Shown one piece after another: positions 34,324-36,139 of a DNA stretch of 64,000 nucleotides. The notes below the pieces were generated by a model. That model was not told where the DNA came from and did not search any database. It saw nothing but the letters and a program-made list of their open reading frames with translations. How positions within the stretch are numbered: the first letter of the stretch is position 1; the number at the start of each line of letters is the position of its first letter. The position numbers were made by a program, and so were the translations under genes. Source of the DNA: Rhodopseudomonas palustris (GTDB lineage Bacteria > Pseudomonadota > Alphaproteobacteria > Rhizobiales > Xanthobacteraceae); the NCBI GenBank assembly GCA_016215605.1, contig JACRJB010000025.1, positions 62,001 through 126,000 on the forward strand, read 5' to 3'.

Positions 34324-34665
34324 GCGGGTCCGGCGCGTGCGATCCCCGCGCCTGACAAGGACGCTGCACTGGGTGTGAAAGCAAAGTCCCTCCACGCGTG
34401 ATGGCCGGGCTTGTCCCGGCCTGCCGCACACGCCGTCATTCCGGACGGTGCGCGGAGCGCGCCGATCCGGAATCCCGAGATGTCGGCCGACTGAGCGGCG
34501 CCGAGATTCCGGGTTCGCCCGCCGCTGCGCGGCGGCCGCCCCGGAATGACTCGGGGAGAGGTTGTCGCGTCCGCTTCGCGCGTCGAACGAGGTCTATTCA
34601 AGAGCAGCTCGTCGCGACAGAGACGACCCAGACATCCAGCCTTTCATCCGCCCGAAACAATCCGC
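34324..34665. other. Intergenic stretch with interspersed repeats
   Basis: 342 bases with no believable gene. It holds a GATGGCCGGG-CTTGT-CCCGGCC hairpin near 34400, the inverted-repeat element at 34435-34550, and then about 115 bases of unremarkable sequence before the promoter of the structured RNA element. Confidence 0.6.
34435..34550. repeat. Interspersed palindromic repeat with GTCATTCCGG ends
   Basis: 116-bp element with terminal inverted repeats GTCATTCCGG (34435-34444) and CCGGAATGAC (34541-34550), plus internal hairpins such as GCCGCTGCGCGGC. Typical of the palindromic repeats of Bradyrhizobium-like genomes (recall). Confidence 0.7.
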
Positions 34666-34695
34666 TTGACAGGACTTTAAACCTGTGATTATAGT
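34666..34695 (+). promoter_or_regulatory. Strong housekeeping-type promoter
   Basis: TTGACA at 34666-34671 and TATAGT at 34690-34695 with an 18-bp spacer (or TTATAG with 17 bp). The -35 is perfect and the -10 differs from TATAAT at one place. It points into the folded region that follows, and the first start codon of the next gene is nearly 700 bp away. Confidence 0.65.
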
Positions 34696-34699
34696 CCGC

Positions 34700-35217
34700 T
34701 CGTCCCGCCTCGCTGCGAGGGGCGTTCGCGATCGTCACGGACGCGGGGTGGGATGCGGTGGACGGGAGCGGCGTTCTGGCCTCCGATCGCGCCACGGGTA
34801 ACCGTGGCGCGTGAGCAGGGGTCGACGACCCGCGCGGCTCCCGGACGGCCAAAGTCGCGATATCCCGGCGCATCGCCTTGCGCAGGGAGCAGCGCCAAGC
34901 CGTGCCGACCACCGGGGGACGAGCGCCGGCCCACAAGGCGGCGGTCGAAACCCACCGGTCGGCAAGGACGGTGCGTCAGCCTCCCGCAATGGTGGATTAC
35001 TCAGGGCCGCCCACCAGGGGTCTTCGCGAACCAAGCCGTTAAAACCGCCGCGTGCGGAACGCCGGGCGTTTCCGGTGTGACCGTGGTGACTACGCTCGTG
35101 TGCTTTTGTTTGTTGCACACGAGGCCGCGGGTGCATCGGGCACCCGGCGTTCCGCGCGCCCTCGTGATCCCGAGGGCGGAACGTTCACCGCAAACCCCGG
35201 GCGCTTCGCGCCGCGGG
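34700..35217 (+). ncRNA. Structured non-coding RNA candidate, about 520 nt
   Basis: No coding sequence fits, but the strand folds richly. There is a perfect 9-bp stem GCGCCACGG/CCGTGGCGC closed by a GTAA (GNRA-class) tetraloop at 34789-34810, and GGGTC-GAC-GACCC at 34819-34831. A long-range 13-bp perfect pairing GCGGAACGCCGGG (35054-35066) with CCCGGCGTTCCGC (35143-35155) encloses CTCGTGTGC/GCACACGAG (35095-35123) and GGGTGC/GCACCC. GCCCTC/GAGGGC follows, and a final GGCGC-TTC-GCGCC hairpin ends near 35217. A strong promoter precedes. I associate similar sequences with multicopy intergenic elements in Bradyrhizobium-like genomes, from memory only. The ends given are inferred from the promoter and the last hairpin. 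Confidence 0.55.
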
Positions 35218-35362
35218 ATCGGAGATCCGTGGGTGGCGACCGCCGAGCACGATCGCGACGCGCCGCCGGCGAAGCCGGTGCGCAGAGGCGCGGGAGCGGC
35301 ACCGTCCCGGCCCATAAGCGGCCCCATTGCCTGCCCGCCCGTCCCGGTCCAAGACTGACGCC

Positions 35363-36139
35363 ATGACCCTGCACGATGTCCGCGCCACCATCCGCGAACT
35401 CTACGACGGCGTCACGCCGCGCGGCGTGGTGTTTCGCTACGCGCTGCTGGCGTTCGACATCGCCACCATCGCGTTCATCGTCGGCACCTCGTTCCTGCCG
35501 GCGAACCCGATCGTCGAGACGCTCGACATCGGCTTCGGCGCGCTGATCCTGATCGACTTTTTCGCGCGGCTCTATGCCAGCCGCCGTCCGCTGCGCGAAT
35601 TCGCCCGGCTGGCGACCTGGACGGATCTCGTCGCCATCCTGTCGTTCCTGGCGCCGCTGCAGGGCGAAGGCGCCGGCTTCCTGCGCATCCTGCGCACGCT
35701 GCGGGCGTTTCAGGACTATCAGATGCTGACGCGGCTGCGCAGCGACAGCGCCTTCTTCCGCCGCCACGAGGAGGTGGTGATCGCGGTGGCGCGCCTCGCG
35801 GTGTTCATCTTCGTGATGACGGCGATCGTGTTCGAGACGCAGAAATTCAGCAATCCGCAGATCGCCAACTACGCCGACGCGCTGTACTTCACCGTCACCG
35901 CGCTGACCACCACCGGGTTCGGCGACATCACGCTGCCCGGCACCACCGGGCGGCTGATCAGCGTCGTGATCATGATCTTCGGCGTCACGCTGTTCTTCAA
36001 TCTGGCGCGCGCGCTGATCAGCCCGAACAAGGTGCGCTTCCCCTGCCCGGTCTGCGCGCTGCAGCGCCACGACGCCGACGCGGTGCATTGCAAGGCTTGC
36101 GGCACGGTGCTGAACATTCCCGACGAGGGGCTGAGCTAG
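35363..36139 (+). CDS. Voltage-gated-type potassium channel with C-terminal zinc ribbon
   Basis: 258-residue membrane protein with six predicted spans like a small voltage-gated channel. The fourth segment is RILRTLRAFQDYQMLTRLR, with regularly spaced Arg, and the pore loop TALTTTGFGDI is a variant of the K+ filter TxxTVGYGD. After the last span comes a short tail with two CXXC pairs (CPVCALQ...HCKACG), a zinc ribbon that could sense redox or metal. Start at ATG 35363 without a strong ribosome site. It follows the non-coding element and precedes a convergent gene. Ion selectivity is inferred. Confidence 0.85.
   Translation: MTLHDVRATIRELYDGVTPRGVVFRYALLAFDIATIAFIVGTSFLPANPIVETLDIGFGALILIDFFARLYASRRPLREFARLATWTDLVAILSFLAPLQGEGAGFLRILRTLRAFQDYQMLTRLRSDSAFFRRHEEVVIAVARLAVFIFVMTAIVFETQKFSNPQIANYADALYFTVTALTTTGFGDITLPGTTGRLISVVIMIFGVTLFFNLARALISPNKVRFPCPVCALQRHDADAVHCKACGTVLNIPDEGLS

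Follow-up and report, generated by a model that had tools for sequence, protein, structure and literature searches.

The window, a stretch of 64,000 nucleotides of the Rhodopseudomonas palustris genome, carries an element between positions 34666 and 35217, in which a promoter of the sigma-70 type directly precedes a region predicted to give a highly structured RNA (Table 1). Transcription would start near 34702 and give an RNA of ~515 nt. The two promoter boxes, TTGACA (34666-34671) and TATAGT (34690-34695), are separated by a spacer of 18 bases and match 11 of the 12 consensus bases; the promoter noted in a preliminary description of this DNA is indeed present, and is the sole promoter-like site on either strand of the 1.1 kb from 34400 to 35500 (0.0 expected from 50 shuffles). 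No intrinsic terminator was found at the window copy and no U-tract follows P10, so the 3' end of the RNA is placed by inference. Immediately before the element, at 34504-34549, there is a sequence resembling the published repeat Br-REP2, and other repeat-like sequences follow many of the copies discussed below.

Table 1. Features of the window copy (positions in the window).
Feature	Position	Strand	Basis
Inferred RNA	34702..35217	+	27 other full copies homologous, covarying consensus fold; start from promoter, end at last conserved hairpin
Sigma-70 type promoter, TTGACA-18-TATAGT	34666..34695	+	Site search and alignment of copies
P1, 5' domain	TCCCGCC 34703-34709 with GGTGGGA 34747-34753	+	11 compensatory cells at one pair
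P2, long-range helix closing multibranch domain	GCGGTGG 34755-34761 with CCGCCGC 35045-35051	+	3 compensatory cells
Hairpin with GTAA loop and perfect 10-bp stem, CGCGCCACGG-GTAA-CCGTGGCGCG	34788..34811	+	Fold and sequence
P4/P5, strands ~34845-34866 and 35017-35039	34845..35039	+	Consensus columns 161-182 with 290-311; placement in window by eye
P7 hairpin, GGTGG / CCACC	34991..35015	+	20 compensatory cells at one pair
P8, long 3' hairpin with 13-bp base and inner 9-bp stem	35054..35155	+	Fold and covariation; core of model R1
P9 hairpin, CGCCCTCG / CGAGGGCG	35157..35178	+	Weakly supported across the family: each of its six pairs has 3-19 non-standard cells
P10, terminal GC hairpin	35196..35217	+	Fold and family alignment

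The element and about 120 further bases (34701-35340) were folded, and the z-score was -5.3 on the forward strand and -3.9 on the reverse; on neither strand did any of 20 shuffles reach the stability of the real sequence. The 13-bp long-range pairing enclosing a 9-bp hairpin, which had been picked out from the sequence earlier, corresponds to P8: its base pairs GCGGAACGCCGGG (35054-35066) with CCCGGCGTTCCGC (35143-35155) around an inner stem formed by CTCGTGTGC (35095-35103) and GCACACGAG (35115-35123). The run of hairpins was likewise found up to a final GC-rich one, which ends at 35217. The perfect stem capped by a GTAA loop is also there, with 10 bp and not the 9 bp first given; it lies in a variable domain of the window lineage and is not conserved across the family. 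P2 is mostly invariant and is for that reason supported more by conservation than by covariation. At P4/P5 most copies have CGTGTGGTCC opposite GGGGAGAGCACGA, and the window copy has its own variant.

The stretch had been described as lacking a believable reading frame. Open frames of up to 201 aa do exist, the longest being an ATG frame at 34753-35358; none of the five frames tested is intact in the closest orthologues, loci L054 and L060. Over the aligned part covered by this comparison (34699-35220), frameshifting gaps interrupt all but two of the ten frame-orthologue pairs, and both of these contain a stop. The 201-aa frame has no NCBIfam match, and a protein-coding gene was rejected on these grounds.

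A DNA search of the own genome returned six matches, made up of the window copy, a piece on each of contigs C61 and C43, two pieces on C67 and one on C33. The C61 and C43 pieces lie at two contig ends and together would make one copy, and the two C67 pieces represent a copy more distant from that in the window. The short C33 match is located in coding-like sequence and was taken as chance. Among 41 genomes drawn from the own genome, the genus, the family and the order, DNA searches matched 15, in two of 26 genera, and even within the genus the distribution is patchy (two of 16 genomes have no match and one more has only a 35-nt match). Twenty-eight full copies including that of the window were cut out and fall into class I (19 copies, among them the window copy) and class II (nine copies, with a longer core and a different 3' end). 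Two models were also built, R1 for the 3' hairpin and R2 for the 5' domain. R1 matched 86 of 198 sampled family genomes in 21 of 47 genera, with at most 17 candidates scored per genome; a deeper search of eight genomes gave 4-22 matches before antisense echoes of the same hairpin were struck out, and 11, 3, 12, 17, 16, 9, 4 and 9 distinct places when counted by hand. R2 gave 2-50 matches per genome in eight complete genomes. Twenty R2 regions were fetched from three genomes, one of them incompletely, and by eye 18 of the other 19 are full copies and one is truncated. The repetition that had been suspected in this genome and its relatives is thus supported at the level of sequence.

At the level of the order, 11 of 297 sampled genomes matched, ten of which belong to the same family. 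The eleventh, G328, belongs to the same order and contains the sole match outside the family (C17:175513-175644, locus L159), a near-complete copy by eye whose presence may possibly reflect horizontal transfer. In a class-level sample searched with R2 under strict filters, one of 289 genomes matched, namely the own genome. The window element had no match in phage and plasmid records, in collections that may omit records very near the window's genome, and an exact hairpin pattern had no match in a viral collection. For the association with Bradyrhizobium-like genomes made in the preliminary description, the only named support is a 51-base match of a divergent copy to a plasmid of Bradyrhizobium sp. 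Ash2021. Decayed or truncated copies also exist (L043:7305-7362 on the reverse strand, L065 from 5880, and L273), which is evidence for turnover of copies. Taken at the level of sequence, the element appears to specify an apparently uncatalogued structured RNA of ~520 bases, which many genomes of the family hold in numbers from a few copies to about fifty.

A TTGACA-like box followed by a TATA-like box stands directly before the RNA in 25 of the 28 full copies as counted by eye in the alignment (an automatic count of 23 of 28 anchored L038 and L040 wrongly), and in the remaining three, all from genome G020, TTATCC takes the place of the TTGACA-like box. Further upstream, beyond the promoter, the 28 copies are mostly unrelated. 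More distant copies differ in promoter type. Loci L157, L171 and L178 have a different type of promoter, with a GGGGATANNAATCCCC-type palindrome at the expected -35 position. The copies of genus g41 (L263-L271) carry repeated CGTCGGGCAAATCA-type boxes and a AAAAATATTCC box in the promoter region, upstream of the RNA, which suggests that a dedicated regulator may act on them.

Evidence for a conserved RNA fold comes from covariation. Fifty-nine copies were aligned, including 31 of 39 divergent loci, and 42 were retained at less than 88% identity. Their consensus fold has 111 pairs, with standard pairs in 90.6% of cells, and 301 compensatory cells are found at 63 of the pairs. Shuffled controls (200) gave a mean of 86 compensatory cells (maximum 108) at a mean of 34 pairs (maximum 46), with the proviso that shuffles ignore relatedness, and sliding one strand by 1-3 columns gave 47-78 cells at 25-42 pairs, a comparison in which the real fold is favoured since it was drawn from the same alignment. 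Despite these caveats the excess in the alignment is large, and it bears out the long structured non-coding RNA that had been proposed from the window alone; a lack of compensatory changes among homologues, named beforehand as a result that would refute this proposal, was not what the alignment showed. Double changes occur in P1, P4-P8 and P10, with poor support for P9 and parts of P3; at the base of P8, for example, the window copy has GCGGAACGCCGG/CCGGCGTTCCGC where some g41 copies have GCAGGGAAGGCCGG/CCGGCCTTCCCTGC. The element is thus long, non-coding and endowed with a complex, covariation-supported fold, the features that mark a large ornate non-coding RNA, and we regard it as nearly certain that it represents a conserved family of structured RNA genes with promoters of their own.

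No known RNA family was recognised in the element. At the gathering score Rfam 15 gave no match for the window and, for fourteen loci with divergent copies, only a tRNA (L160) and a glycine riboswitch (L159), both outside the element coordinates. Rfam searches by E-value covered 4 kb of the window and six loci with sister element B, described below; they returned sub-threshold matches and a tRNA in L250, and a tRNA search of the window found none. Models for retrons, group II introns and HEARO had no match in the window or in the fourteen divergent-copy loci. The same was true at the Rfam gathering score of OLE, GOLLD and ROOL, presumably all included in Rfam. Like these, the window family would be a large bacterial RNA with an elaborate fold; however, OLE, GOLLD and ROOL mostly occur once per genome and are often linked to phages or operons, whereas the window family has many copies scattered over each chromosome. 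All three count among the large ornate bacterial RNAs (PMC12286853).

In what is probably the same bacterial lineage as that of the element, the sRNAs BjsR1-10 and the repeats Br-REP1 and Br-REP2 have been described from Bradyrhizobium (Hahn et al. 2016, PMC5082802). In the relevant sections of that paper BjsR5, 6, 7 and 10 have 2-4 imperfect copies, the REPs are intergenic and common to Rhodopseudomonas with a consensus of about 20-40 nt, and the Northern size markers span 60-160 nt; in contrast to the element, those sections do not mention an RNA of ~500 nt that occurs in tens of copies. It is by description and not by sequence that the element is set apart from the BjsR RNAs, and some BjsR may be a fragment of the element RNA. 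MITE-, CREE- and RU-type elements are dispersed, intergenic and non-coding, and are present or absent at individual loci. The element too is dispersed, non-coding and present or absent at loci, but it differs from them in having its own promoter and a covarying fold of ~500 nt, and inspection by eye showed neither terminal inverted repeats nor target duplications. No description of the element was recognised among the papers brought up by searches of the open full-text literature.

Copies occupy unrelated intergenic places. Genes around them were called with a simple GC3 rule; 43 of 62 placed upstream neighbours and 38 of 66 downstream neighbours share the strand of the element. No gene family is a regular neighbour among the 122 of 128 neighbours scanned, the commonest Pfam family being found in four of the 122, and neither RT nor HNH is among the 25 commonest of their families, 137 others being rarer. 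Among the loci read no ORF-carrying version of the element was noticed. IS110-like transposases adjoin the element in three genomes (L140:3458-4432, L168:1222-2214 and L174:1110-2306). At the window locus itself, among the loci compared, which lay on one strand, the element is present in genomes G000, G008 and G011, with a piece at a contig end in G013, and in G002, G003, G005, G010, G012 and G015, where both flanking genes are readable, there is no match to it; these element-free versions are too diverged to define an exact junction. Terminal inverted repeats or a target-site duplication were not seen by eye in the flanks of nine copies.

Six pairs of copies from the same genome are 95-97% identical over the RNA and different beyond the shared body. 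The right end of the shared stretch lies 16-57 bases beyond P10. The left end coincides with the -35 box in two pairs, precedes that box by 175 bases in a third, and in the other three falls within the promoter or where the RNA starts. Three copies in genome G007 (L050, L051 and L052) have RNA bodies that are 95-97% identical and promoter spacers that have diverged, with sharing that starts at or near the RNA start, a pattern that RNA-limited conversion or copying through RNA would give. In a tree of the 28 full copies, those at the SDR, FAH and MlaD loci group by genome, while window-locus copies and class II copies group by locus. At the FAH locus the flank and the first ~77 bases of the element are 93% identical between two species; the middle differs between them and resembles the other copy within each one's own genome, a pattern of sequence that fits gene conversion. 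For the shared loci other than FAH, repeated insertion at hot spots is possible. The class II copies, which come from nine genomes, form one clade, and among the matches listed at least eight of the nine loci are linked by shared flanks, so that one copy of the element has evidently kept its place for a long time. A RpoD-like protein was recognised by eye upstream of the class II copy in two loci.

Many copies end in a further motif. The sequence GGCTGTTTGA lies within 160 bases of 14 of the 22 class I pieces that have a 3' end, and 14 of its 15 occurrences in 0.84 Mb of strand-bases adjoin an element; it is absent from the window copy, from class II copies and from the other eight class I pieces. 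The 16S leaders inspected (L285, L286 and L287, one in G012 and two in G211) all carry the motif, or a variant of it that differs at one base, in the form of GGCTGTTTGACAAG or GGTTGTTTGACAAG, placed about 190-212 bases before 16S, and the GGCTGTTTGACAA-type tails seen on L038, L043, L050 and others are of the same type as the motif of these leaders, which we take to be boxA. Many copies of the element thus resemble the boxB-boxA signals of rRNA leaders in that GGCTGTTTGACAA-type sequence comes after a GC hairpin, but they carry the motif at the 3' end, and the window copy does not have it.

The tail motif also led to a second multicopy element, B, on which GGCTGTTTGA is found as well (for example G000:C66:33989-34534, L233:975-1520). 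Profiles of B and of the window family (A) match at the promoter and 5' domain and again at the 3' module and tail, with only E = 3.3 for the middle, or core. The A profile matched all 15 B loci; the B profile matched six of ten A sequences, the window stretch not being one of them. Element B has a predicted fold of 155 pairs, 92.9% of them standard; across 15 copies, 29 of the pairs show 79 compensatory cells, figures that are raw counts without shuffle control from unthinned copies. In the own genome 27 matching pieces of B lie at about 26 places, nine being near full length and several others at contig ends; none is inside the window, and three of 14 genomes had no match to the B query.

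Of the ways to account for the family, we favour a large, structured non-coding RNA encoded by an autonomous gene that has multiplied into a dispersed family, with a role in trans, a reading that on the sequence evidence we hold with belief and doubt in equal measure. A trans-acting RNA is favoured because the promoters and the fold are kept across genera and because one class has a long-kept place; patchy presence, decayed remnants, the lack of a regular neighbour and of an intrinsic terminator, and a tail that is missing from many copies and placed unlike that of rRNA leaders count against it, and action in trans taken by itself appears to us evenly poised. The chief rival is a selfish, non-autonomous mobile element whose transcript would be needed for its spread, guiding an enzyme that comes from elsewhere or serving it as scaffold or copying template, with the fold being kept for mobility and not for the host. 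It is the chief rival because of the copy number, which reaches 50 matches in one genome, the presence or absence at loci, exemplified by the six genomes in which the window locus is readable on both sides and has no match, and the RNA body shared in unrelated surroundings, as in the six pairs, where the right ends lie so close to P10. The three pairs whose shared stretch starts within the promoter or where the RNA begins are what copying through RNA predicts, sister element B has both ends in common with A and not the core, and IS110 transposases are three of the 122 neighbours. However, in the other three pairs the promoter is shared too, and so can travel; the nine copies showed by eye neither a target-site duplication nor terminal inverted repeats, no transposase or reverse transcriptase is regularly adjacent, some loci are common to several species, and the sharing between pairs may reflect gene conversion and not movement. 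We judge such an element a serious but distinctly less probable account.

The remaining explanations fare worse. A cis-acting intergenic module that insulates transcripts, stabilises a 3' end or provides antitermination for a neighbouring gene would be in keeping with the strand of the upstream neighbour, to the extent that the simple GC3 rule can be relied upon, and with a boxA-like tail, which would act on transcription downstream of itself; but only 38 of 66 downstream neighbours share the element's strand, and they belong to no fixed family, and an insulator would have no need of its own promoter, which makes this improbable. Repeats acting at the level of DNA alone, REP- or MITE-like palindromes for which RNA folding is a by-product, might be expected from the REP-like repeats around many copies, including the Br-REP2-like sequence just upstream in the window, and a P8-like hairpin would also persist as a DNA palindrome. 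Against this, compensatory changes occur in the long-range helices P4 and P5 and a one-strand promoter is kept in place, so that we consider it very unlikely. A protein-coding gene, for which the 201-aa ATG frame is the sole candidate put forward, has practically no claim given the frameshifting gaps or stops in L054 and L060 and the missing NCBIfam match.

According to the favoured model of a trans-acting RNA gene, RNA polymerase would start near 34702 and make the ~515-nt RNA, which would fold into a scaffold and work in trans, probably as an RNA-protein particle. Dosage would be supplied by the many copies, which would arise by duplication and some of which would be homogenised by gene conversion. 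The Nus/S10 antitermination machinery is proposed as partner because GGCTGTTTGA is found in 14 of 22 class I pieces and on B and also in the 16S leaders read, and the RNA might then most simply be a decoy or competitor coupled to rRNA synthesis. This step is weak because the window copy and the class II copies are without the tail, and we look on the link to Nus and boxA as doubtful. Also speculative, and in our estimation rather unlikely, is a superfamily in which exchangeable cores are set in a common chassis made up of the promoter, the 5' helix, the 3' hairpins and a boxA tail of rRNA type. Its members would be dispersed in tens of copies, held similar by gene conversion in the manner of rRNA genes, and would act via the rRNA antitermination machinery. 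We know of no counterpart among bacterial RNAs for such an arrangement of chassis and core.

If transcribed, the RNA would be among the highest-copy large structured bacterial RNAs known to us, yet it has no match in Rfam 15. The lineage that carries it probably includes model photosynthetic bacteria and soybean symbionts. The covarying copies provide a ready set for structure work, and the family offers an apparent case of bacterial gene conversion outside rRNA, together with a possible connection, one that can be put to the test, of a repeated RNA to antitermination of the rRNA type.
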